Positions 1-12,444 of a DNA stretch of 12,559 bases are shown here, piece after piece. The notes under the pieces were generated by a model. It was not told the origin of the DNA, searched no databases, and saw only the letters and a program-made list of their open reading frames with translations. Made by a program: the position numbers and the translations under genes. Source of the stretch: a candidate division Zixibacteria bacterium SM23_81 (GTDB lineage Bacteria > SM23-81); contig LJUY01000067.1 of the NCBI GenBank assembly GCA_001304015.1, forward strand, positions 1 through 12,559, read 5' to 3'. How positions within the stretch are numbered: the stretch's first letter is position 1; each line of letters begins with the position of its first letter.

Positions 1-407
1 GCATATTCCGCGTATTCTCTGATAAGCTCGTCTCCCTCTCCATAGGCCTCGATTTTATCCTCCAGGATGCGAATGCCCAGTCCGCTGGCGTACCGGCTCA
101 TGACCCGAGCGGCATCCTCGATGGTCTCCCCGGCACTGCTCTTCGTCTTCAGACGCATGGCCTGGGGCTCCAGAAACTGTGCGTGAGCTCCCAGTTCAGT
201 GGCCGCAGCCTCGAAGGACTGGCGGGTGCGGACCGAGGGATTGTAGAAGAACATCATGAAGGTTTTATACCGCAACAAGCCGGAGTACCGGTCTGAGAAC
301 CGGTTCTCCTTCATCTTCCGGGCCAGCCCGAGGACCAATTCCAACTCATCCAGGCTCCACTCCTGAGTACAAATCAGATCCTTCCCCTTCAGCGCTGTTT
401 TTGTCAT
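1..407 (-). CDS. Knotted transcarbamylase paralogue, N-terminal part (cut by window edge)
   Basis: This is the first 135 residues of an aspartate/ornithine-carbamoyltransferase-fold protein; the rest lies left of position 1. Residues 56-65 contain the carbamoyl-phosphate loop with SVRTR at 58-62, the SxRTR signature of the superfamily, followed by a QSFE helix. The pattern YNPSVRTRQSFE and the ELGAHAQFLEP strand resemble N-acetylornithine transcarbamylase and the next gene in the operon rather than classical ArgF or PyrB. The ATG at 407 lies 15 nt after the stop of the upstream transcarbamylase, with GAGGG just before it, so the two genes are surely co-transcribed. The carbamoyl acceptor cannot be told, because the acceptor-binding C-terminal domain is outside the window. 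In this catabolic setting the likely direction is phosphorolysis of a ureido compound to carbamoyl phosphate, which is inference. Confidence 0.85.
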   Translation of the reverse strand, partial: MTKTALKGKDLICTQEWSLDELELVLGLARKMKENRFSDRYSGLLRYKTFMMFFYNPSVRTRQSFEAAATELGAHAQFLEPQAMRLKTKSSAGETIEDAARVMSRYASGLGIRILEDKIEAYGEGDELIREYAEY

Positions 408-422
408 CGCTTCCCTCACCGT

Positions 423-1466
423 CTATCGCATAACCATGGCCATGACGGCCTTCTGAACGTGCAAACGATTCTCTGCTTCGTCGAAGACCACTGACCGCGG
501 ACCGTCGATGACCTCATCGGTCACCTCGAAGCCCCGGTCACACGGGAGGCAATGCATGTAGACTGCCCCCCCATCGCACAGGTCCATTTTGGCCTTATCG
601 CAGATCCAATCCTGGTGTTGTTGGAACAGTTTTTCCGTCTTTTCCATCTCCGGCTTGGCTGTCTGAGGAGGAATATTTTCCATGCTCGTCCAGGACTTGG
701 GGTAGACTACATGGGCACCCCGGAAGGCCTCCTGCATATCGTGAGAGATCTGAAAGGAGCCCCCGGAGTTCTCCACGTTGACCTGGCAGGCCCTGATCAC
801 CTCGGGATCCAGCTCCAGTCCCTTAGGATGGGCCAGCACCACCTCCATGCCCATCTTACTGGCGGCTATGACGACACTCTGGGGCACGCTCAGGGGCTTC
901 TCCACGCTGGGGGAATAAGCCCAGCTCATCACCAAGCGACGTCCCCGAAACCCACCCAGTTTCTCCTTGATGGTCAAAAGATCCGCCAGGGCCTGACAGG
1001 GATGATACTTATCACACTCCATGTTGATGATGGGGATGTCCGACCAGCGGGCAAACTCGTTGACGATCTGGTTGGCTTTACCGTAGATCCAATCCACGGG
1101 CTGACCATACATTCTGATGGAGATACCATGGCCCATGCGAGACAGGGTCCGAGCCACATCCGCAATCCGCTCTGTGGAATAAGCTTGCTCGTCCCCCTCC
1201 AGAGCCGGCGCGTAAATTTTGCCAGGATCCAAAAAGTGGGCGTGCCCGCCCAACTGTGTCATGCCCGCCTCGAAACTGTTTCTGGTACGCAGAGATTGGT
1301 TGTAAAAGATCATGAACAGGCTTTTGTCCGACAGGAGATGATGCGGTTGGCCGGTGGCGAATTTCCTTTTCAAGTCCAGGGCCACATCCAAAAGGGTCTC
1401 AATCTCCTCCCGTGAATACGATAGTAGGCTAATGTAGTCTCTTCCGCGGAAGGTGTTGGTTTTCAT
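423..1466 (-). CDS. ygeW: Knotted transcarbamylase, YgeW / N-acetylornithine carbamoyltransferase type
   Basis: This 347-residue carbamoyltransferase has SLRTR at 58-62 (carbamoyl-phosphate site), HPCQ at 155-158 and HCLP at 305-308, the three hallmark motifs of the superfamily. The segment AYSPSVEKPLSVPQ at 183-196 closely matches what I recall of E. coli YgeW, the knotted catabolic transcarbamylase. The C-terminal DEAENRLHVQKAVMA resembles N-acetylornithine transcarbamylase, also knotted. Residues binding ornithine in ArgF are not obvious, so an unusual acceptor is likely. The ATG at 1466 is chosen because AAGGAGG sits 9 nt upstream; the reading frame extends to a TTG at 1517 with no ribosome site. 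It is followed by a second transcarbamylase 15 nt later. The role proposed is release of carbamoyl phosphate from a ureido amino acid, feeding ATP formation by a carbamate kinase not seen in this window. Family assignment is firm; substrate is inference. Confidence 0.88.
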   Translation of the reverse strand: MKTNTFRGRDYISLLSYSREEIETLLDVALDLKRKFATGQPHHLLSDKSLFMIFYNQSLRTRNSFEAGMTQLGGHAHFLDPGKIYAPALEGDEQAYSTERIADVARTLSRMGHGISIRMYGQPVDWIYGKANQIVNEFARWSDIPIINMECDKYHPCQALADLLTIKEKLGGFRGRRLVMSWAYSPSVEKPLSVPQSVVIAASKMGMEVVLAHPKGLELDPEVIRACQVNVENSGGSFQISHDMQEAFRGAHVVYPKSWTSMENIPPQTAKPEMEKTEKLFQQHQDWICDKAKMDLCDGGAVYMHCLPCDRGFEVTDEVIDGPRSVVFDEAENRLHVQKAVMAMVMR

Positions 1467-1532
1467 AGGCCGGAACCTCCTTGGGAAACGAGAAAAAAGA
1501 AAGTGCTTATGGATCAAAAGTGCTGCCTGGCC

Positions 1533-1542
1533 ATCACGTGAT
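1533..1542. promoter_or_regulatory. 10-bp perfect palindrome in the 129-nt intercistronic gap
   Basis: ATCACGTGAT is a perfect palindrome in the only long gap inside the operon (1467-1595, between the PLP enzyme and the first transcarbamylase). The gap shows no convincing -35/-10 pair for the minus strand and no terminator hairpin with a T run. The palindrome could be a protein-binding site or chance. Confidence 0.3.
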
Positions 1543-1595
1543 CATGTATATGAGAGAGGGGCAAAGATCATCTCTGGGAGAAAGACAGATAATCT

Positions 1596-2642
1596 TCACT
1601 CGATGATTTCCCATCGGCTCTGATACTTGTCCAATTGTTCGACGGTGTATTGGTCCATGGGATGTTCCCGCTCGGGGATGTCCACCTCCTTGGCCTCGCC
1701 ACACAGTTCCGTGGAGAAATACCGCTGTCCCGTGTCGTTTATCATGGTGACCACGGTCTTTAGTTCGGGATGCTTTCGGGCCAGCTTGATGGCAGCCATA
1801 ACATTGCTGCCCGAGGAGATCCCGCAGAAAAGCCCCTCCTCCAGGGCCAGCCGCCGCCCCATCTGAATGGCCCGTTCCGAGGTAGTGGTGATAATTCCAT
1901 CCAGGATGCTCAGATCCAGGTTAAAGGGCACAAATCCATCGCCGATCCCCTCGATCTTATGGGATCCCCACTCCCTTTTTGAAAGCATAGGTGCCTCGAA
2001 GGGCTCTACGGCGAAAAGCTTTACCTGTGGATTGCGTTCCCTGAGATAGCGGCCCACACCCGTGATGGTTCCGCCGGTTCCCTGGGTGGCCACGAAGGCG
2101 TCTACCTGCCCATCTGTCTGTTCCCAGATCTCTGGACCGGTGGTCTTGTAGTGAGCCCCGATGTTATTGGGATTACCGTACTGGTCGGGTTCCCAGTATT
2201 TGCCCGGATTGGCCGCCTTGATCTCAGCCGTCTTGGCGATGCATAGGTCCACATCCGATTCAGCTCCCGGGGTGAAGATGATGTCGGCGCCATAGGCTCG
2301 CATGATCTTCATTCGCTCTTCGCTCATCCCATCGGGCATCACGATGGTCACCTTATAGCCCAGCAGTTTGCCCACAAAAGCACAGGCGATGCCCGCATTG
2401 CCCGTGGAGGTCTCTATGATCTCCATCCCTGGCTTTAGCTCCCCCTTTTCAATGGCCTGGGTGATCATCTCGTAGAAGATGCGGTCTTTCAAGCTGCCAG
2501 TGGGACTGAACCATTCCAGCTTCCCCAGAACACGAGAGGCCAGCCCTTGGGTCACAGAATTAAGGCGCACCATCGGGGTTCTGCCTATAGCCTCGAAGAT
2601 ATTGTCGGCGATGCGCTTGTTGGCTCTCCAGTCAACGCCCAT
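1596..2642 (-). CDS. Cysteine synthase-fold PLP enzyme (beta-elimination or replacement, substrate unknown)
   Basis: This 348-residue protein belongs to fold-type II PLP enzymes, closest to CysK/CysM/cystathionine beta-synthase. Lys52 in GSLKDRI is the Schiff-base lysine, GTGGT at 188-192 binds the PLP phosphate, EGIGDGFVP at 231-239 matches the CysK GIGAGFIP region, and GISSGSN at 274-280 supplies the serine near the pyridine nitrogen. The substrate-carboxylate loop, TSGNTG in CysK, reads STGNAG at 79-84, so specificity probably differs from O-acetylserine sulfhydrylase. The ATG at 2642 has AAGGAG 6 nt upstream and follows the SsnA-like gene by 15 nt. E. coli has YgeX, a diaminopropionate ammonia-lyase of the same fold type, in the comparable locus. 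A similar beta-elimination of a diamino or ureido-amino propionate is a reasonable guess. Plain cysteine synthesis is less likely in this operon but not excluded. Confidence 0.85.
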   Translation of the reverse strand: MGVDWRANKRIADNIFEAIGRTPMVRLNSVTQGLASRVLGKLEWFSPTGSLKDRIFYEMITQAIEKGELKPGMEIIETSTGNAGIACAFVGKLLGYKVTIVMPDGMSEERMKIMRAYGADIIFTPGAESDVDLCIAKTAEIKAANPGKYWEPDQYGNPNNIGAHYKTTGPEIWEQTDGQVDAFVATQGTGGTITGVGRYLRERNPQVKLFAVEPFEAPMLSKREWGSHKIEGIGDGFVPFNLDLSILDGIITTTSERAIQMGRRLALEEGLFCGISSGSNVMAAIKLARKHPELKTVVTMINDTGQRYFSTELCGEAKEVDIPEREHPMDQYTVEQLDKYQSRWEIIE

Positions 2643-2657
2643 GTAGTTCTCCTTTCC

Positions 2658-4010
2658 TCAAAATCTCTCCCAAAGCTTGCTGGCCAGCTCCCGAGCCCGA
2701 GCAGCAATCTGTTCTTCGTCGAGGTTGACGAGCTGACCATTTCGCATGAGCTCATTTCCGGCCACTATGGTGGTCTGCACTCTGGCGCCGGAGATGCCGA
2801 ACAGCAAATGTCCCAAAAAATTATCGGGTCTCAACGGCGTCGGCGGGTGATAATCTAAAAAGATCAGGTCGGCCGCAGCGCCCGGACGGATCACCCCGAG
2901 AGAATCCCGGAAAAACAGCCCAGCGATGTCCCGGTTATTTTGAAATGCCATACGGAGCAGCTCTGCATAACCTACCCGGGGATCCCCATGGCTCAGCTTA
3001 TGCAGGATGTTGGCCGTCCTGATCTCATCAAACATATTTGCGGTAAAGCCATCGGAGCCTAAACCCACGCGAATGCCTCGATTTAACATCTCAACAACCG
3101 GGGCCACGCCGACCCCATTATTGCAGTTCGACTGCGGGTTGTGGATCACATTGGTGTCCGTTTCTCGAAGGATGTCCATGTCATCCCCATCCACATGAAC
3201 GCAATGGATAGCCAGCGTTTCGGGTCCCAGAACGCCGCAATCGGCCAGTCGCTGCACCGCCGATTTCCCATACTTCGCCCGGGCATCGCTCACATCGGCG
3301 GCGTCCTCGGCCACATGAAGATGAAAACCAACATCGAGGTCTTTGGCCAGCTCAACACATTCTCTCAGGGTTTCGTCCGACAGGGTAAAGGAAGCGTGCA
3401 GGCCAAAGCTAGCCGCTCGCATGGCCTTCTTTTCATATTGGCACCTGCGGATAAATCGACTATTCTCCTGGATGCCCGCCTGCGCCTCTTGGCAACCGCC
3501 CCTGTCCGAAACCTCATAACACAGGCAACCCCGAAGGCCCGCTTGATCGATGGCTTGGGCGATGAGATCTAAGCTTCCCGAAATGCTCCCGGGGCTGGCG
3601 TGATGGTCAACGATGGTGGTAGTACCATGTCGAATGCAGTCAATAAGAGCCACCAGGGCACTGTAAAGAATGTCCTCTGCCACGAGAGCCTTATCCAGAC
3701 GCCACCACAGCCGTTCCAAGATCTGCACGAAATTGGCGGGAGGCTCATCCTTCAGAGCCATTCCTCGAGCCAAAGTGCTGTACAGATGCGTATGGGCGTT
3801 GATCAGACCGGGCATGACCAGCTGGCCCTGGGCATCCACAACTCGCTCCTCTGGATGACGCCCTGACAGTCTCTGGGTGGATCCCACCTCGACGATCAGA
3901 CTCTCTTGGATGAGCAGGGCACCGTCCGGGATGATCCGACCTGATTCGTCCAGGGTGACCAGATTGGCGTGAGTGATCAACAGCCCTCTTTCTTCCCCAG
4001 TTCTTCCCAT
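2658..4010 (-). CDS. ssnA: SsnA-like metal-dependent aminohydrolase
   Basis: This 450-residue protein of the amidohydrolase superfamily (TRZ/ATZ, guanine-deaminase-like) is close to the 442-residue E. coli SsnA. Likely metal ligands are His73 and His75 (NAHTHLY), His232 (HLHVAED), His272 and Asp320 (GLGSDG). Stretches such as LWWRLDKAL at 101-109 and VDHHASPGSISGSL at 134-147 match SsnA as I recall it. The ATG at 4010 begins 5 nt after the preA-like stop, with AAAGGT about 10 nt upstream. The frame runs on to a GTG at 4127 inside preA, but those extra 39 residues look unrelated to the family. SsnA has been linked to the purine/urate catabolic region in E. coli and to gut urate degradation; its exact reaction is not something I can state. 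A hydrolytic deamination or ring opening in the cytoplasm is the expected chemistry. Confidence 0.88.
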   Translation of the reverse strand: MGRTGEERGLLITHANLVTLDESGRIIPDGALLIQESLIVEVGSTQRLSGRHPEERVVDAQGQLVMPGLINAHTHLYSTLARGMALKDEPPANFVQILERLWWRLDKALVAEDILYSALVALIDCIRHGTTTIVDHHASPGSISGSLDLIAQAIDQAGLRGCLCYEVSDRGGCQEAQAGIQENSRFIRRCQYEKKAMRAASFGLHASFTLSDETLRECVELAKDLDVGFHLHVAEDAADVSDARAKYGKSAVQRLADCGVLGPETLAIHCVHVDGDDMDILRETDTNVIHNPQSNCNNGVGVAPVVEMLNRGIRVGLGSDGFTANMFDEIRTANILHKLSHGDPRVGYAELLRMAFQNNRDIAGLFFRDSLGVIRPGAAADLIFLDYHPPTPLRPDNFLGHLLFGISGARVQTTIVAGNELMRNGQLVNLDEEQIAARARELASKLWERF

Positions 4011-4015
4011 AAGCT

Positions 4016-5260
4016 TCAGGACCTTTCTCCCTCCTGCGAGTCCTCTCTTTGCTCGGGTTTCACTTCTTCCATATAGAGACAATCGCTCACAGGACAAACG
4101 GTGAGACACAGGCCACAACCCACACACTTTTCCTCGTCCAACAGGGGCAATCGATTCTCGTCCAGCTCGATGGCCTGATGACCCCCGTCACGGCAAGCCA
4201 GGTAGCAAAGGTCATCTTTGATGCACAGTTCCGGGCGTATGCGGCTGACCACCTTCTTGGCCTGGGAAAGTCCCTCGTGGCTGGTGATAAAGGCCAGCGA
4301 TTTCCCCACCAGTTCTTTGGGAGACCGCATCCCTTTGTCCCTCAGGTATCGTTCTAGCCCATCGGTGAGGTCCTCGATAATTCGGAACCCATAGTGCATG
4401 GGTGCCGTACAGAACTGGACCGTGCGGGCCCCCACCAGCATAAATTCCACGGCATCTTGCCAGTCAGCCGCTCCGCCCGTGCCGGTTATGGGAATCTGAA
4501 CGTTCCGAGCGATCTCGGCGATGACTCGCAGGGTGATAGGCTTAATTGCCGGTCCGGACAGGCCACTATAAGTAGATTTGCCATCTACCCGAGGATAGGG
4601 AACGAAGGTCTCCAAATCAACGCCCATGAGAGACGGGATGGTATTGGAAGCGCAGATGCCATCGGCGCCCCCATCCTTGACCGCCTGAGCCACCTCTACG
4701 ATATCAGCAACCTGAGGGGTGATCTTGATCACCACAGGGGTCTCACCAGCCCCCTCCTTCACCCAAGCGGTGACCTCCCGCACCAGCTTGGGATCCTGGC
4801 CCAGCATAAAACCTGGCCTGGTCCCCAGAGTTCCTTGAGGACAGGAAAAACTGCACTCGATGAGATCTACACCAGCGGCGCTAAGCCTTTCCGCCACCGT
4901 CTTCCAATCCTCCCTGATGGCCGCCATCATGCTGGCTATGACCACTTTCTGGGGGAACGCCTTTTTCAGAACGCGAATTCGCCCTTCAATCTCATCGATG
5001 TGATGTTGGGAGATGAGGTCGATGTTGCCCAGGCCGAAAACTCGTTTGCCCTCATGGTCTAAACCCACGATCATGGGGTAGACCAGATCCACCGCAGTGC
5101 CCTCCACCGATGTGGTTTTCAGCACTGCCCCTGCCCACCCTGCCTGAAAAGCCCTTGTCACCATATCAGCATCATCGGTGCATGGTGAGGCAGCCAGTAC
5201 GAAGGGACTGTCAAAAGACACGCCACAAAAAGTGGTCCCGAGATCGACGTGTTGCGACAT
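4016..5260 (-). CDS. preA: PreA-like FMN/ferredoxin subunit of a dihydropyrimidine-dehydrogenase-type reductase
   Basis: This 414-residue protein has a dihydroorotate-dehydrogenase-like FMN barrel (about 1-320) followed by a two-cluster ferredoxin domain (about 340-400), the layout of E. coli PreA and of the C-terminal part of mammalian DPD. Cys140 in SFSCPQG aligns with the catalytic cysteine of DPD, and Asn206-Thr207 with uracil-contacting residues. Other contacts differ: NID (79-81) for NIE, Ser137 for Asn, and Gln142 for His in SCPHG. The first ferredoxin motif is C346-xx-D349-xx-C352-xxx-C356, with Asp where DPD has Cys; the second (379-389) is complete. The ATG at 5260 has GAGGT 8 nt upstream. 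The gene lies 37 nt after the PreT-like gene, as its natural partner. The fold and electron-transfer role are clear; the substrate, uracil or something else, is open. Confidence 0.9.
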   Translation of the reverse strand: MSQHVDLGTTFCGVSFDSPFVLAASPCTDDADMVTRAFQAGWAGAVLKTTSVEGTAVDLVYPMIVGLDHEGKRVFGLGNIDLISQHHIDEIEGRIRVLKKAFPQKVVIASMMAAIREDWKTVAERLSAAGVDLIECSFSCPQGTLGTRPGFMLGQDPKLVREVTAWVKEGAGETPVVIKITPQVADIVEVAQAVKDGGADGICASNTIPSLMGVDLETFVPYPRVDGKSTYSGLSGPAIKPITLRVIAEIARNVQIPITGTGGAADWQDAVEFMLVGARTVQFCTAPMHYGFRIIEDLTDGLERYLRDKGMRSPKELVGKSLAFITSHEGLSQAKKVVSRIRPELCIKDDLCYLACRDGGHQAIELDENRLPLLDEEKCVGCGLCLTVCPVSDCLYMEEVKPEQREDSQEGERS

Positions 5261-5297
5261 GGAAACTTACCTCGATATGCGGTCCAGAGCGCTTCTG

Positions 5298-6629
5298 TTA
5301 ACGGTTCTCCTGCAGGTATCGATGAATGCCCCGGGCCGCCCTTTTCCCCTCAGCCACAGCCTGAACTACCGTGGCCCCACCGTTGACCACATCGCCACCG
5401 GCAAAAACGGAGGGATTGGATGTCTGGCCGGTTTCCGAATCGACGATGACCAGACCGGCCGGAGAGGTCTCCAGTCCGTAAATTTTGGCCACGGTCTCAT
5501 CTGGCCTCTGACCGATTGCCTCCACCAAGCTATCTACCCGCAGCTGGAACTCGGTACCCTCAATCACAACGGCATTGTCGGGCACGAACAGACCCGGCTT
5601 TTTCCAACGAATGCCCACCCCCTCCATGCCAACTACTCGGCCTCCCTCTCCCAGGATGCGCAGGGGCTTTGATCTAGTGTGAAACTCCACGCCATCATCC
5701 CAGGCGAAGCGGACCTCCGAGGGAAAAGCGGGCATCTCCTGGGGACCCTCCAGACAGACCATCTCCACCCTGTCAGCACCCAGTCTCAAAAGGCTACAGG
5801 CTGTGTCTATGGCCACGTTTCCCCCACCGATAACCGCCACTCTACGTCCCAGCTTGGCACAGAGATCCTTATGTGACCCCGGGTCCTCCTTGATGGCCCA
5901 CAGCAGCTCCTTGGCCCAGAAAACGCCCTTCAAATCCTCCCCTGGGATCTGCGCCCGGACGCTTTGTCCCAGCCCGGTACCCAGGAAGATGGCCCGGAAG
6001 CCTTTGGCCCGCAGAGCATCTGGATTCAGCTGACCATCAAATCCCTGGTTGTAAGAGATCTTCACCCCCAGGCGCCGGATCAGGTCTACTTCGCCCTCCA
6101 CCACGCTGCGTGGTAAACGATAGGCGGGTATTCCTGTGGCCAGCACACCTCCGGCCCTGCTGGTGGCCTCGAAAACCTCTACCTTATAGCCCAGCCTGGT
6201 CAACTCAGCTGCAGCAGCCAAGCCCGCAGGCCCTGCTCCCACCGCAGCCACCTTCATCTCTCTGGTCTTGGTCAAGGCCGGGGCCACATCCAGGTGCGAA
6301 TGCCCTTTCTCCCAGGCATACCGCTGCAGTCGGCCTATCTGAATGGGCTCCAACAGCTCCGTGTGGCTGCACGCCTCCTGGCAAAGCGTCTCTACGGGGC
6401 AAACTCGGGAGCAGGTATCCCCCAAAACGTTGGCCTGGAAAATGAGCTGGGCCGCTCCCGCCCGGTTGCCACTTTTAAGCCGGCGAATGAAGCCGGCCAC
6501 GTCGATGCCCGCGGGGCAGGCATTGCTGCACGGGGCGTCGTGACAGAAGAGACAACGCGAGGCCTCCAGTAGAGCCTGGTGCGGCAGATAGGTCTGTTCG
6601 ATCTCCCGGAAATCCTTCACATGGCCCAC
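5298..6629 (-). CDS. preT: PreT-like FAD/NAD(P)-dependent iron-sulfur oxidoreductase (GltD family)
   Basis: This 443-residue protein is the electron-input partner of PreA. The N-terminal domain carries CLFCHDAPCSNACP (Cys26, 29, 34, 38) and CSRVCPVETLCQEAC (Cys73, 77, 83, 87), the two [4Fe-4S] sites of the GltD/DPD family, followed by IGRLQRY (98-104). In mammalian DPD a glutamine in the equivalent stretch is a cluster ligand. The FAD dinucleotide fold is VGAGPAGLAAA at 130-140, the NAD(P) fold is IGGGNVAID at 267-275, and the closing GGDVVNGG at 411-418 is the usual FAD-binding C-terminal motif. Start: GTG at 6629 with AAGGAG 9 nt upstream, overlapping the end of the xdh gene; a second in-frame GTG is at 6620. 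E. coli PreT is about 412 residues. Besides feeding PreA, it might also serve the molybdenum subunit encoded just upstream, which lacks its own FAD partner here (inference). Confidence 0.9.
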   Translation of the reverse strand: MGHVKDFREIEQTYLPHQALLEASRCLFCHDAPCSNACPAGIDVAGFIRRLKSGNRAGAAQLIFQANVLGDTCSRVCPVETLCQEACSHTELLEPIQIGRLQRYAWEKGHSHLDVAPALTKTREMKVAAVGAGPAGLAAAAELTRLGYKVEVFEATSRAGGVLATGIPAYRLPRSVVEGEVDLIRRLGVKISYNQGFDGQLNPDALRAKGFRAIFLGTGLGQSVRAQIPGEDLKGVFWAKELLWAIKEDPGSHKDLCAKLGRRVAVIGGGNVAIDTACSLLRLGADRVEMVCLEGPQEMPAFPSEVRFAWDDGVEFHTRSKPLRILGEGGRVVGMEGVGIRWKKPGLFVPDNAVVIEGTEFQLRVDSLVEAIGQRPDETVAKIYGLETSPAGLVIVDSETGQTSNPSVFAGGDVVNGGATVVQAVAEGKRAARGIHRYLQENR

Positions 6630-6642
6630 AGATTGGGTCTCC

Positions 6643-8964
6643 TTAGAGTTCCTTTCTCTCCTCTAACAAGGCCCGACGCAGAGCCTCCGGGCCGATGGGC
6701 AGCTTTGTAATCCTGATCCCGGTGGCGTCGTGTATGGCATTGGCCACAGCGGCGGCCGTTGGGATGATGGGCTGTTCTCCCAGGCCCTTAGCACCATAGG
6801 GTCCCTTTTCGGATATGGCCTCCACGATGATGGGCTCCACTTGGGGAACGTCAAGAGAGGTGGGTATGGTGTAGGTGGCCAGATCTGGGGTTTGAATCTG
6901 TCCCTTGACCATCATGAAGTTCTCCAGGAGGGCGTATCCCACCCCCTGGACCACTCCACCCTCGATTTGACAGGAGACGCCCTGGGGATTGATGGCCTTG
7001 CCGACATCATGAGCCGCCGTCACTCTGAGAACTTGAACCTGGCCTGTATCCAGATCCACCTCTACCTCGGCGATCTGAGTGCCGTATCCATATACGTAGT
7101 AGGCATCCCCCTGCCCCGTCTCCTCATCGAAACTGCACGGAGGAGATACGAACCACCCTTCAGCGCCCAAGTTGATATTGCGGCTGTAGCAGTGCTGAAC
7201 CAGCTGGTCAAAAGAGATCTTCTTCCCCCCTCCCAGGACCTGCCCATCCCGGAAGTCCAGTTTCTCCGGAGCGACGGCCAAAAGCTCGCTGGCCAGCTCT
7301 GTCATGCTCCTCTTGATCTGTTCCAGGGCGTTCAATGTGGCGTTGCCGCTGAAAACGGTGGTTCTGGAGGCCACCGTAGGACCGCTGTCTGGGACCAAAC
7401 TGGTGTCTGTGGCCAGAATTGCGATCCTGTCCAAGGACAAGCCCATGCATTCGGCGGCCATTTGAGCGACGACAGTTTGCGCCCCCTGGCCCATCTCCGT
7501 GCCTCCGATGGCCACGCTCACCGAACCATCCTGATGCACCTGGACCGCGGCGGCCGAGCCGTCCAGAGGCCAACCCTTGGCGCCTAAGCTCACTCCGTAG
7601 AACATGGCAGAGGCGCCCAAGCCACGTCGGCGCGATGGGCCAATTCTCTTGTCTTCAGCTCTCTTGCTCTCCCAGTCGCAGGCCTCTTTGGCCTTCACGA
7701 TGGTCTCCTCAAGGCCCACGCTCTCCCTGAGAACTTGCCCCGTGGCCGTTTGAGATCCTAACCTGAGACCATTTATCAGCCTGATCTGTATGGGATCCAT
7801 ATTAAGTTTTGCGGCCAGCTCATCGACCATGGACTCGTGGGCGAATGTTACCTCCGGAGTACCGAAGCCTCGCATGGCCCCGCTAGGAATATTGTTGGTA
7901 TAGGCCCCATAAGTGTCCACCTTGACGTGGGGAATCTCATAAGGCCCAGTGGCGTGGACCGTACTGCGGAACATAACTACAGGAGAAAGAGTTGCATAAG
8001 CGCCTACATCAGCCAGAACCTCAATCTGAGCACAGAGGATCTTTCCCCCCTTAGTAGCACCCATCTTGTATGTGACGGACATGGGGTGCCGCTTGCTGCT
8101 GCGGCGAAGGTCTTCTTCTCGGGTTAGGATCATCTGCACTGGCCGATGGGTTTTCCAGGCCAGAAGGGAGGCGAAGCCGCATATCTCCGAGGGCACATCC
8201 TCCTTCCCGCCAAAGCCCCCTCCCGTGGTGGCCTGGACGATGCGGACCTTATTCATGGGTAGCCCCAGAACATGAGCCACTCCCTTTTGGACATAGAAGG
8301 GACACTGTATCGATCCCAAAATGGTCATTGAGCCATCCCCTTCGGGGATCGCCAAGGCCCCGATGGTCTCGATATAGACATGTTCTTGCCGCTGAGTGTG
8401 AAAAGTCTCCTCCAGAAGGATGTCACATTCCCCAATGCCTTTTTTCAGGTCGCCCTTGCGGATTTTCAAATGAGTCAAGAGGTTTCCTCCTTGGTGTACC
8501 AAGGGGCTGTTCTCCCCCAGGGCTTCCTGAGCCGTGTAGACGCCTGGCAACGTCTGGTAGTCCACTCGAATCAGTCCCAAAGCCTTTTCGGCAACAGACG
8601 CCGATTCCGCCGCCACCAGAGCCACACAGTCCCCCACGAATCGAACGGTCTCCTGGGCCAATAAGGGCTGATCTGGGGTGACCACACCGATCTGGTTCTC
8701 TCCAGGGATATGTTGGGCCGTGATCACAGCCCACACTCCCGGCAAACCCTCGGCCTTGCTGGTGTCAATGCCCTTAATGTGGGCGTGAGCATGGGGGCTG
8801 AACAACATCTTGCCGTACAACATGCCCTGAATTTTGACGTCGGCTACATATCGGGCTCTGCCGGTTACCTTGGACCGAGCGTCAATCCTCTTGACCGGCT
8901 GGCCCACCAGCGCTTGATGAGGCCTTCTCGTGTGTCGACCAGAATTGGCAATTGTCGGGCTCAA
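6643..8964 (-). CDS. Molybdenum hydroxylase large subunit (xanthine dehydrogenase family, XdhA/XdhD-like)
   Basis: This is a molybdopterin-binding subunit of about 773 residues. Using numbering from an upstream ATG at 8991: VKRIDARSKVTGRARY (33-48) is the family's N-terminal signature, GGGFGGKED (257-265) contacts the cofactor, GAMRGFGTPE (371-380) carries the arginine equivalent to Arg880 of bovine xanthine oxidase, QEHVYIE ends in Glu208 equivalent to Glu802, and GAKGLGE ends in Glu739, the catalytic base. Retention of both substrate-side residues favours a purine or similar N-heterocycle as substrate. The TTG at 8964 is preferred because AGGAGG lies 4 nt upstream; the ATG at 8991 has no visible ribosome site and a GTG at 8907 is a third option. 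The gene overlaps the amidohydrolase gene. No [2Fe-2S] or FAD subunit gene is present in this window. Family is certain; exact substrate and start are not. Confidence 0.88.
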   Translation of the reverse strand: MSPTIANSGRHTRRPHQALVGQPVKRIDARSKVTGRARYVADVKIQGMLYGKMLFSPHAHAHIKGIDTSKAEGLPGVWAVITAQHIPGENQIGVVTPDQPLLAQETVRFVGDCVALVAAESASVAEKALGLIRVDYQTLPGVYTAQEALGENSPLVHQGGNLLTHLKIRKGDLKKGIGECDILLEETFHTQRQEHVYIETIGALAIPEGDGSMTILGSIQCPFYVQKGVAHVLGLPMNKVRIVQATTGGGFGGKEDVPSEICGFASLLAWKTHRPVQMILTREEDLRRSSKRHPMSVTYKMGATKGGKILCAQIEVLADVGAYATLSPVVMFRSTVHATGPYEIPHVKVDTYGAYTNNIPSGAMRGFGTPEVTFAHESMVDELAAKLNMDPIQIRLINGLRLGSQTATGQVLRESVGLEETIVKAKEACDWESKRAEDKRIGPSRRRGLGASAMFYGVSLGAKGWPLDGSAAAVQVHQDGSVSVAIGGTEMGQGAQTVVAQMAAECMGLSLDRIAILATDTSLVPDSGPTVASRTTVFSGNATLNALEQIKRSMTELASELLAVAPEKLDFRDGQVLGGGKKISFDQLVQHCYSRNINLGAEGWFVSPPCSFDEETGQGDAYYVYGYGTQIAEVEVDLDTGQVQVLRVTAAHDVGKAINPQGVSCQIEGGVVQGVGYALLENFMMVKGQIQTPDLATYTIPTSLDVPQVEPIIVEAISEKGPYGAKGLGEQPIIPTAAAVANAIHDATGIRITKLPIGPEALRRALLEERKEL

Positions 8965-10327
8965 ATATCCTCCTGTGCAGAAACTGTCCATACCCAGAAG
9001 ATCCGCAGAACTGACTGTTCTGAGCTATAATCCGCCCCCGAAGCATGGTCAGCTGAACGGCCCCGCGGCATGTGAAACCCTGATATGGGGAGAAATCGGT
9101 ATTCATATGCAACGCTTTCGCGGATATGGTGAATTCCACTTGGGGGTCAAAGATGACCAAATCAGCGTCGCTGCCCACCTCGAGAGCGCCCTTGGCGGGA
9201 TAAAGCCCAAATATCTTAGCCGGATTGGCGGACATGGCCGCCACCAGCTGATTGGCCGTTAAATGACCTTGGTATACTCCATGGGTATAGATCAGGGGCA
9301 GAGATGTTTCCACCCCCGGTAAGCCATTGGGAATTCTATCGAAGCGCTCCATGCCGAGACGTTTTTGTTCTTTAGTGAAGGGACAGTGATCGGTGGAAAT
9401 CACCGAGATGCCTCCTTGGGCTAGACCGAGCCAGAGGGCCTCTCGGTCTTTGGGACTGCGCAGGGGTGGCGTGGCGATAAAGTCACCTCCCCCCTCTCCC
9501 AAATAGACGGTCTCATCCAGAAGAAGATACTGGGGGCAGGTCTCGGCCCACACGGGAAATCCCCCATCGTGAGTTTCCTGGACGGCTGACAGAGCCTGAC
9601 TGGTGGTCAGATGAACGATGTACAGGTGGCCATGAGCAAAACGGGACAGATAGATGGCTCGGCGAACGGCCTCTTCTTCCACTTGGTGAGGCCGACTCCG
9701 AGCGTGAAAAATGGGTGCGACCTTTCCATCCATCAACAGCTGCTCAGTGAGATGCTCCAGAAGGGGTCCGTTTTCGGCGTGAACCATCACCAAACCGCTC
9801 ACCTCAGCGGTGCGCTTCAAAACGGCGTATAGACCTCCGTCGTCCACCATGCGCCCGTCGCGACGGTAAGCCATATAGAGTTTAAAGCTGGTCACGCCAT
9901 CCCGCACCAGACGGGGGATTTCATCCAAGATGGCCTCATTGACCTCGACGATTTCGGCGTGCAAGCCATAATCGACGGCCACCCGCCCATCGGCGGCTCG
10001 GCGACGATCTCGAAGGCTGGCCTCTAGTGAAGTCCCCTTGCGGTGAAGGCTAAAATCGATGATAGTAGTGACGCCCCCGCAAGCAGCGGCCCTGGTGCCG
10101 GTGGTGAAATCGTCGCAGGAGGTGGCCAACTCCATGGGCAACTCCATGTGAGTGTGAACATCGATGATTCCGGGCAAAATCCACTTGCCCTCGGCATCCA
10201 AGACCTGGGCCGCCGCACTTACTTGACCGCCGCTGATCTGGGCGATGCGACCATCTTTTATGCCGATTTCAGCCCGATAACTTTTCTCGGCGGTGACGAT
10301 CAAGCCACCTCGTATCCACGTGTCCAC
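8882..10327 (-). CDS. hyuA: Dihydropyrimidinase / hydantoinase-type cyclic amidohydrolase
   Basis: This 481-residue zinc amidohydrolase should open a cyclic amide (dihydropyrimidine, hydantoin or a purine-derived ring). Metal ligands are His58 and His60 (DVHTHME), Lys149 in TSFKLYMAY (the carboxylated bridging lysine), His183, His239 and Asp313 (STDHCPF). The tyrosine of YMAY (154) sits where D-hydantoinases have an oxyanion tyrosine. Start is GTG at 10327, with only a weak GGGTG before it. This is the first gene of the operon. The usual C-terminal end seems to fall near GYGQFLHRRIFE (445-456); the last 25 or so residues are low-complexity and lie over the start of the xdh gene, giving an 83-nt overlap. 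E. coli HyuA (YgeZ) and allantoinase AllB are relatives. Class is firm; substrate is not determined. Confidence 0.9.
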   Translation of the reverse strand: MDTWIRGGLIVTAEKSYRAEIGIKDGRIAQISGGQVSAAAQVLDAEGKWILPGIIDVHTHMELPMELATSCDDFTTGTRAAACGGVTTIIDFSLHRKGTSLEASLRDRRRAADGRVAVDYGLHAEIVEVNEAILDEIPRLVRDGVTSFKLYMAYRRDGRMVDDGGLYAVLKRTAEVSGLVMVHAENGPLLEHLTEQLLMDGKVAPIFHARSRPHQVEEEAVRRAIYLSRFAHGHLYIVHLTTSQALSAVQETHDGGFPVWAETCPQYLLLDETVYLGEGGGDFIATPPLRSPKDREALWLGLAQGGISVISTDHCPFTKEQKRLGMERFDRIPNGLPGVETSLPLIYTHGVYQGHLTANQLVAAMSANPAKIFGLYPAKGALEVGSDADLVIFDPQVEFTISAKALHMNTDFSPYQGFTCRGAVQLTMLRGRIIAQNSQFCGSSGYGQFLHRRIFEPDNCQFWSTHEKASSSAGGPAGQED

Positions 10328-10947: not shown

Positions 10948-11607
10948 GTGGATAAAATCAGAGTTTTTCTGACGGATGACCATACCATCCTACGCGATAG
11001 TCTAACGTATCTCTTAGCGGATGAGGAGGAGATTGAGGTGGTGGGAGAGGCTGAAAACGGCCATCAGCTGTTAAAAGAGGCCAAAAAAACCTCTCCCGAC
11101 GTCGTTGTGGTGGACATCTCCATGCCAATCCTAGGCGGTTTGGAAGCTGCTCAGCGGCTTAAAAAAATACTGCCCAAAGCCAAAATCTTGATCCTCACCA
11201 TGCATACCGATGAAACCTACATACACCAGGCCTTCAAATCAGGAGCGTCCGGCTTTATGGTGAAAAAAGCAGCGGCACAAGATCTGGTCTCGGCCATCAA
11301 AGCCGTTCACAGAGGGGAAACATATATCAGCCCCATAGTCTCTGAGAGGGTGGTCCAAGAGTTCGTCCGGAGCTCTCGGCTCTCACGAAAAGCGATCTTT
11401 TCCGATAAACTCACTCTTCAAGAACGTCAAGTCCTCAAGCTCATTGCCGAAGGTTGGTCCAGCAAAAAAATAGGTCAGCATCTCAATATTAGCACCAGGA
11501 CCGTGGAGACTCATCGGGCTAATATAATGCAAAAACTTGATTTGCATAAAGTGGCCGATTTAGTAAAATACGCCATACGTCGAGGGTTGGTGCAGGTAGA
11601 ACCATAG
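10948..11607 (+). CDS. NarL/FixJ-family response regulator
   Basis: This 219-residue two-component regulator has an N-terminal receiver domain (about 4-120) with the acidic pair Asp10-Asp11, phospho-acceptor Asp56 in VVVVDISMP, Thr84 and Lys106. A LuxR-type helix-turn-helix follows at about 154-212, with LTLQERQVLKLIAEG and the recognition region STRTVETHRANIMQKL. Start is GTG at 10948 with AAGGAG 6 nt upstream. No histidine kinase lies next to it in the window, so its signal is unknown. It is divergent from the catabolic operon across a shared control region, which makes it a candidate regulator of that operon (inference). The receiver looks fully competent for phosphorylation. Family call is certain; target genes are not. 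Confidence 0.95.
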   Translation: MDKIRVFLTDDHTILRDSLTYLLADEEEIEVVGEAENGHQLLKEAKKTSPDVVVVDISMPILGGLEAAQRLKKILPKAKILILTMHTDETYIHQAFKSGASGFMVKKAAAQDLVSAIKAVHRGETYISPIVSERVVQEFVRSSRLSRKAIFSDKLTLQERQVLKLIAEGWSSKKIGQHLNISTRTVETHRANIMQKLDLHKVADLVKYAIRRGLVQVEP

Positions 11608-11795: not shown

Positions 11796-12383
11796 ATGGC
11801 GGACAAATTCGATCTCGGACGAAAGATCCACCGTCTGAGAAAAGAGAAGCTGCTCACCCTGAAACAGCTTTCCGAGATGTCTAACGTGACCGCCACGCAC
11901 ATCTCGGAGCTAGAGCGAGGTCTCGCCTCGCCCACCATCAACACCCTCCATAGAATCTCTCAGGCTTTGAGAAAGCCGGCTTCTTACTTCCTGCCCACTG
12001 AGGAAGACAAAAACGTCAAGATAACGACGGAGAAAAACCGTAAGTCTGTGGCCCGGAACGGGTACAAACTGCAGTTTTTTAACGCCGACATGACCGATGC
12101 CAAGCTGCGGGTGGGCCGTATCGCATTCGATGGAGAGGTCACTTTTCACCCCCTAGGATACGTAGGCGATGAAAAAATGGCCACCATCCTCCGGGGGAAG
12201 GTTGAGGTGGAGCTCAACGGGAATACGATGCAGCTGGAAGAGGGGGACACCATTCAGATCACCGAGGGCCTGCCCAGCAGATTACGCAGTCTCAGCAAGG
12301 GCGGAGCCGAGGCCATGCTGTTTCTGTCCGCCTCCTTTCACATCGACCCCAAGCGCATCAAATTCAGACCGAGTGGCAAGTAA
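11796..12383 (+). CDS. XRE-family transcriptional regulator with C-terminal cupin domain
   Basis: This 195-residue protein has a Cro/C1-type helix-turn-helix at about 9-65 (LGRKIHRLRKEKLLTLKQLSEMS, then the recognition region VTATHISELERG, in segments within 8-42). A small cupin domain follows at about 105-180, with ILRGKVEVEL and LEEGDTIQI as the typical strand motifs. Only part of the cupin metal motif is kept (His118, Glu126), so a small-molecule sensor role is more likely than catalysis. The layout and size resemble PuuR-type regulators. The ATG at 11796 has an almost ideal AAGGAGGT 6 nt upstream. It has its own promoter and a strong terminator, so it is a single-gene transcript. Twin palindromes beside its promoter suggest autoregulation. 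It may also control the catabolic operon; that is inference. Confidence 0.93.
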   Translation: MADKFDLGRKIHRLRKEKLLTLKQLSEMSNVTATHISELERGLASPTINTLHRISQALRKPASYFLPTEEDKNVKITTEKNRKSVARNGYKLQFFNADMTDAKLRVGRIAFDGEVTFHPLGYVGDEKMATILRGKVEVELNGNTMQLEEGDTIQITEGLPSRLRSLSKGGAEAMLFLSASFHIDPKRIKFRPSGK

Positions 12384-12403: not shown

Positions 12404-12444
12404 AAAAAGAGCCGCTAGACGTTTCGTCTGGCGGCTCTTTTTTT
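12404..12444 (+). terminator. Intrinsic terminator behind the XRE-cupin gene, probably bidirectional
   Basis: A 13-bp stem (12409-12421 with 12425-12437, one U-G pair) with a TTT loop is followed by seven Ts (12438-12444). Five As precede it, so the minus strand also has a hairpin followed by a T run. It begins about 20 nt after the XRE stop codon and would also end a convergent transcript from the right. Confidence 0.92.

Follow-up and report, generated by a model that had tools for sequence, protein, structure and literature searches.

A probable variant of the reductive uric-acid degradation pathway with two adjacent transcarbamylases in a Zixibacteria draft genome

Which substrate is degraded by an operon in which PreT and PreA, a molybdenum hydroxylase, two ring-opening hydrolases, a PLP enzyme and two transcarbamylases stand side by side? 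The question is raised by a contig of candidate division Zixibacteria bacterium SM23_81. The stretch analysed here, hereafter the window, is that entire contig (LJUY01000067.1, our contig C5) of 12,559 bases. It belongs to a 3.07-Mb draft genome (G000) in 99 contigs with a completeness of 92.6%, whose phylum is represented in our sample by three other genomes only. ORF calling of the window gave eight genes with short gaps on the minus strand between positions 3 and 10327, and profile matches agreed with the families named for them in an initial annotation (Table 1). With the most likely starts, the gaps among the seven genes that follow HyuA are 13, 37, 32, 15, 132 and 15 bases. SsnA starts at 3983 rather than at 4127, with the PreA stop at 4016, the most likely start of OTC1 is 1463, and the true start of the molybdenum subunit probably lies after the HyuA stop.

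The eight genes had been described as an eight-gene operon. They are real, but the operon is larger. We observed that the first 104 bases of the window are exactly the last 104 of contig C25 of the same genome, and DNA of a second genome of the same family (G001) matched C25 right to its end. The joined operon continues past the window with the remainder of the second transcarbamylase (OTC2), carbamate kinase, a threonine-synthase-like (ThrC-like) PLP enzyme, a [2Fe-2S] subunit, a permease, MocA and an FAD subunit, and thus counts at least 14 genes in window and C25 together. The order in G001 (PreT-PreA-SsnA-CysK-OTC1-OTC2-carbamate kinase-ThrC-like-FeS-permease-MocA-FAD) is the same, indicating that it is not due to chance, and the co-occurrence of these families, proposed earlier as a check, was also seen in other genomes. 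A carbamate kinase and a purine-type permease, which were to be sought just left of position 1, are both there through the join. No NCBIfam model matched the permease at the threshold used; its assignment as purine-type is suggested by its resemblance to purine permeases and by its position in the cluster. Upstream of the operon and divergent from it, the plus strand encodes a LuxR-type response regulator (10948-11607) and an XRE-cupin regulator (11796-12383), after which follows a strong terminator-like hairpin at 12404-12442.

Table 1 Features of the window and the evidence for each
Feature	Position	Strand	Evidence
Overlap with the end of contig C25	1..104	.	Exact identity
OTC2 transcarbamylase, N-terminal part	3..407	-	Remainder on contig C25 (L037:18077-18790)
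OTC1 transcarbamylase	423..1463	-	PF02729 and PF00185; loop and motif table; tree; model
CysK-fold PLP enzyme	1596..2642	-	TIGR01139, 363 bits, over cut-off
SsnA aminohydrolase	2658..3983	-	TIGR03314, NF005540
PreA, FMN/4Fe-4S dihydropyrimidine-dehydrogenase-type reductase	4016..5260	-	NF006183
PreT, flavin/Fe-S NAD(P)H-oxidising subunit	5298..6629	-	PF14691 (Fer4_20) and PF07992
Mo hydroxylase large subunit, XdhA/4-hydroxybenzoyl-CoA reductase type	6643..8991	-	PF01315, PF02738, PF20256
HyuA, D-hydantoinase/dihydropyrimidinase-type cyclic amidohydrolase	8882..10327	-	TIGR02033

The gene set had been said to match no standard pathway. This does not hold, since the set is explained by the reductive uric-acid pathway. 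Li et al. 2025 showed for E. coli and C. difficile that urate reduction by XdhD gives yanthine, which is then dearomatised by YgfK or UacX, and that the two rings are opened by SsnA and HyuA, resulting in 2,3-diureidopropionate (PMC12507026). The ureido groups are removed by YgeW or UacY and then by YgeY, and YgeX splits diaminopropionate (PMC12507026), although the order of ureido cleavage was considered unsettled in the commentary of Percudani (PMC12990295). SsnA (IPR017700) is the published marker of this pathway (PMC12507026). Moreover, PreA-like, SsnA, HyuA, YgeW and xdh genes were already linked by Barba et al. 2013, who described PreA-like 'X1' dehydrogenases adjoining ssnA, hyuA, ygeW and xdh genes (PMC4016543). 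The gene content fits the single purine or ureide pathway proposed in the initial annotation, comprising a reduction, the opening of rings, the recovery of carbamoyl phosphate and the breakdown of an amino acid, and we conclude that the operon very probably serves a variant form of the reductive (anaerobic) degradation of uric acid and purines. The oddities pointed out at the outset, namely PreTA, the CysK fold and the two transcarbamylases, are present, but what they mark are the differences between this variant and the published forms. New in the variant are PreT-PreA in place of YgfK/UacX, the ThrC-like enzyme in place of YgeX, and OTC1-OTC2 in place of YgeW-YgeY. In the open-access literature, we found no paper on PreTA with SsnA or on tandem transcarbamylases in this pathway.

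We infer every reaction of the variant from characterised homologues or from gene position, as follows. The permease would take up the purine, and the three-subunit molybdenum hydroxylase would convert urate to yanthine, or the purine to urate. PreT would take electrons from NAD(P)H and hand them to PreA, which would dearomatise the ring, followed by the opening of the pyrimidine ring by SsnA and of the hydantoin ring by HyuA to give 2,3-diureidopropionate. One ureido group of this compound would be phosphorolysed by OTC1 and the remaining one by OTC2, for a total of two carbamoyl phosphates, which carbamate kinase would convert into two ATP, ammonia and CO2. Finally, the ThrC-like enzyme, perhaps together with the CysK-like one, would turn 2,3-diaminopropionate into pyruvate and ammonia. 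That both ureido groups are removed by phosphorolysis, yielding two carbamoyl phosphates per purine, is in our judgment somewhat favoured. Two consecutive phosphorolyses are thermodynamically demanding, which counts against this step of the scheme.

OTC2, a transcarbamylase family with a predicted function, is the most interesting part of the variant. In the alignment, OTC1 displays the proline-rich loop typical of knotted transcarbamylases such as YgeW (WAYSPSVEKPLSVP, against WAYSPSYGKPLSVP in YgeW), and it keeps the substrate lysine of E. coli YgeW and the HCLP motif. OTC2 displays a proline-poor loop, an arginine at the position of the substrate lysine, and HPMP. Both retain the carbamoyl-phosphate motifs SxRT, HPxQ and a variant of H-x-[L/M]-P; the meaning of these positions was taken from PMC4581275. 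OTC1 scored 175 bits against the curated YgeW family, below its cut-off of 500, and its 240s loop is shorter than the extended 240s loop of YgeW. It passes NF003384, the model of N-acetylornithine transcarbamylase (302 vs a cut-off of 288), an identity that we rejected on account of the Ala and Thr that stand where Trp77 and Glu92 are expected. Its structure model (84.4 pLDDT) matched knotted and unknotted transcarbamylases about equally. In the tree, OTC2 forms a clade of its own (support 100/99) and groups with YgeW/OTC1. The paired OTC1 proteins form a clade of 16 rows (100/99), every one of them adjoining an OTC2, while its sister clade (100/98) holds YgeW and single transcarbamylases in 19 rows, E. 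coli YgeW among them, all from loci with YgeY. The pair partners of G303, G075 and G345 fall in a separate group of the tree.

We surveyed 386 genomes across many families, 68 of which had an SsnA match, and a second SsnA sample of 80 loci from a named genome collection; the neighbourhoods of 125 SsnA loci were compared with reference proteins. Sequence searches found the OTC2 family in 22 of the 386 genomes. Identities outside the host's own family were 47-73%, and the next matches fell to about 36-44%. SsnA was present in 20 of these 22 genomes vs 48 of the 364 others (p about 1e-14), and the OTC1-OTC2-kinase module was seen in about twelve families, in almost every case together with SsnA. 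In nearly all complete loci, OTC2 has a transcarbamylase and a carbamate kinase as its direct neighbours. The exceptions are G138, where the kinase is present and does not adjoin OTC2, G164 and G104, which have the same three genes in a different order, and G372, with an M20 protein, OTC2 and the kinase and no OTC1 there. In this last locus (L286, 1637-5000), the M20 protein lies 3 bases from OTC2 and the carbamate kinase and is 32% identical to YgeY, and an in-frame TGA was flagged in its match.

The distribution of OTC2 is linked to that of YgeY, the ureidohydrolase of the published pathway. A profile search found nothing over the YgeY cut-off in G000, G001 or G002. Among SsnA genomes, YgeY over cut-off was absent from 11/20 with OTC2 vs 8/48 without it (p 0.0025); when only SsnA matches over cut-off were counted, from 9/15 vs 1/21 (p 0.0004); and when counted by family, from 6/11 vs 6/36 (p 0.02), in a sample where genomes are related and some are incomplete, so that absences are not proof. 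UacY was considered as the missing hydrolase and rejected: a query that finds relatives at 35-85% in the surveyed loci returned none in the 11 genomes that have OTC2 but lack YgeY. The clearest case of OTC1-OTC2 exchanged for YgeY and a single transcarbamylase was observed in the genus g104, where G242 and G370 display kinase-YgeY-transcarbamylase and G104 displays kinase-OTC1-OTC2 at the same locus. On both sides the flanking DNA is conserved, at about 68-81% identity in the main blocks, and identity is 84-93% for the kinase and the neighbouring PLP protein. Likewise, in the family f15, G016 has YgeY with a transcarbamylase, whereas OTC1 and OTC2, and no YgeY, are found in G164 and G303. That OTC2 always replaces YgeY was considered and rejected, as nine of the 20 genomes with OTC2 and SsnA also have a YgeY over cut-off. 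In the family f96, YgeY adjoins OTC1-OTC2.

These nine genomes speak for an ordinary reductive uric-acid pathway, in which OTC1 and OTC2 make up one heteromeric transcarbamylase, or one of them is a regulatory paralogue, performing the single YgeW step, while an unlinked M20 protein or another ureidohydrolase takes the second ureido group. A possible candidate for this role is an unlinked M20 peptidase on contig C68 of the same genome, whose match to the YgeY model, at 54 bits, stays below the cut-off. We consider this reading unlikely, though, since OTC1 and OTC2 each keep the carbamoyl-phosphate motifs, losses of YgeY are concentrated in genomes with OTC2, the swap in g104 took place at one locus, and the OTC2 of G372 adjoins an M20 protein without OTC1. 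To the double phosphorolysis by OTC1 and OTC2 we add a broader proposal, to which we give even chances: that the pair constitutes an undescribed and widespread energy-conserving branch, in which phosphorolysis of both ureido groups, by OTC1 and the new OTC2 family, doubles the ATP obtained from carbamoyl phosphate.

The last step of the pathway might be served by either of two PLP enzymes. The PLP lyase of the initial annotation is indeed a PLP enzyme of CysK fold, but its identity as the lyase is put in doubt by the second PLP enzyme downstream, the ThrC-like protein of 412 residues on C25. All five PF00291 matches of G000 were inspected, and none is YgeX. Across the 125 SsnA loci, we observed ThrC-like in 29 and YgeX in 29, never together; because the ThrC-like enzyme excludes YgeX, we take it as the probable diaminopropionate lyase. 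Meanwhile, the CysK-like protein has the carboxylate loop ETSTGNAG instead of EPTSGNTG, so that STGNA replaces the TSGNT of CysK. An ordinary CysK with the EPTSGNTG loop is encoded elsewhere in the genome, on contig C36, and together with the altered loop this makes a housekeeping role as cysteine synthase unlikely for the CysK-like protein. A relative with 71% identity lies near SsnA in G269. Alternatively, the CysK-like protein and not the ThrC-like one could be the diaminopropionate lyase, or the pair could produce serine or cysteine through beta-replacement with water or sulfide, with an amino acid instead of pyruvate as end product. The CysK-like gene is flanked by SsnA and OTC1 within the operon of G000 and also of G001. 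This position and the STGNA loop speak for the alternative, as does the fact that the ThrC-like protein is the sole threonine-synthase homologue found in G000 and might carry that duty, alone or as a double role. We hold this alternative to be doubtful, since CysK-like proteins (over 300 bits) are rare by SsnA, in only 4/125 loci, whereas ThrC-like proteins are common there and exclude YgeX. Another PLP protein, of about 450-590 residues, shares 26-32% identity with CysK across some 300 residues and accompanies ThrC-like or YgeX at many SsnA loci (L103, L109, L120, L126, L146, L163, L171, L178, L179 and others). The PLP protein next to many ThrC-like genes has approximately 490 residues.

The molybdenum enzyme leaves two options for the entry into the pathway. 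The large subunit in the window is 33% identical to E. coli XdhA and 28-30% to XdhD, and the [2Fe-2S], FAD and MocA genes are found at the opposite end of the operon. The enzyme may reduce urate, as a urate 6-reductase, or oxidise xanthine, as a xanthine dehydrogenase. As an XdhD-like subunit, 44% identical to E. coli XdhD, is encoded on contig C22, the urate reductase is not necessarily the protein in the window. Glu606 of E. coli XdhD was considered as a test for urate reduction and dropped: it borders a stretch missing from the window protein, where its counterpart depends on the alignment, and clostridial homologues also lack this stretch and do not conserve Glu606. The C22 genes form a second purine cluster (L288, 8409-15324) with FAD, Fe-S and XdhD-like subunits and a deaminase-like amidohydrolase 30% identical to SsnA, and a further hydroxylase lies on contig C91.

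The reductase and the two ring-opening enzymes connect these ends. SsnA scored above both cut-offs (TIGR03314, 570 bits; NF005540, 594 bits) and has the predicted role of opening dihydro-yanthine at its pyrimidine ring. HyuA (TIGR02033, 512 bits, cut-off 393; 43% to E. coli HyuA) is the predicted opener of the hydantoin ring of ureidomethyl-hydantoin. PreA (NF006183, 463 bits, cut-off 335; 42% to E. coli PreA), adjacent to PreT (36% to E. coli PreT, with PF07992 representing the pyridine-nucleotide-disulphide oxidoreductase domain), is predicted to reduce yanthine. Although a homologue of UacX, it clusters with E. coli PreA and not with the clostridial UacX. The own operon has no YgfK, and PreA adjoins SsnA in several phyla. 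Window-type PreA was observed in ten SsnA loci and never with YgfK, which occurred in 51 loci (p 0.005), counts that come from an SsnA-seeded survey and hold for PreA at SsnA loci. PreT was present in 7/125 SsnA loci, all seven with PreA. The position of the DPD catalytic cysteine is a Leu in the window PreA and is uninformative as to substrate, since E. coli PreA has no Cys there either. The passing of PreA and HyuA over the cut-offs of the PreA and dihydropyrimidinase models would also suit a catabolism of pyrimidines or hydantoins, with PreTA as the dihydropyrimidine dehydrogenase of uracil, HyuA as dihydropyrimidinase, and SsnA and Xdh as a separate purine salvage, but this is very improbable given the molybdenum hydroxylase, MocA and purine-type permease of the same operon and the avoidance of YgfK by PreA in SsnA loci, which is expected if PreA replaces it. 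Archaeal contigs (L168, L158 and L159, from Hadesarchaea and Thermoproteota MAGs) also encode SsnA with PreT-PreA or UacX-like genes, L168 having two SsnA-reductase sets. Long PreA-like proteins of about 670-870 residues, perhaps another reductase type, adjoin SsnA in L029, L111, L148, L154, L166, L169, L175 and L220, from Elusimicrobia, Verrucomicrobiota, deltaproteobacteria and others.

If the proposed variant is correct, OTC2 would represent a new transcarbamylase activity, and would define a family that is now automatically placed with ornithine or acetylornithine carbamoyltransferases. The clustering of PreTA and ThrC-like genes with SsnA would be accounted for, and in little-studied bacterial phyla the carbamoyl phosphate of purine fermentation would give two ATP. 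The natural exchange of YgeY for a second transcarbamylase, at one locus within one genus, makes the debated order of ureido cleavage accessible, with each decarbamoylating enzyme assignable to one ureido group.

The cluster of E. coli (xdhD-ygfM, ygfK, ssnA, hyuA, ygeW, ygeY, ygeX, yqeA; PMC12507026) shares with this operon SsnA, HyuA, a molybdenum hydroxylase, a flavin/Fe-S reductase, a YgeW-type transcarbamylase, carbamate kinase and a purine-type permease. It differs in having YgfK where PreT-PreA is found here, YgeX instead of the ThrC-like and CysK-like enzymes, and YgeY, which is lacking here, whereas the present operon has a second transcarbamylase and separate Fe-S and FAD subunits of Xdh. 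The C. difficile cluster (UacX, UacY) likewise has a PreA-type reductase in place of YgfK. However, its UacX has no PreT partner, unlike the PreA described here, and its UacY hydrolyses a ureido group, whereas here there are two transcarbamylases and UacY was not found. In Nocardioides, Barba et al. 2013 reported a pseudo-ATCase beside a ygeW homologue (PMC4016543). Nocardioides sp. JS614 shares with our operon two adjacent transcarbamylases with xdhABC and hyuA, but that study neither detected a PreA (X1) homologue there nor proposed a pathway of double phosphorolysis (PMC4016543). The ureidoglycine carbamoyltransferase of Rubrobacter xylanophilus also replaces a ureido-hydrolase of purine catabolism and adjoins carbamate kinase (PMC4016543). 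That enzyme acts in the oxidative pathway, with allantoate, belongs to the ATCase branch and carries H(T/S)LP; OTC2, with its HPMP motif, falls with YgeW/OTC1 instead.
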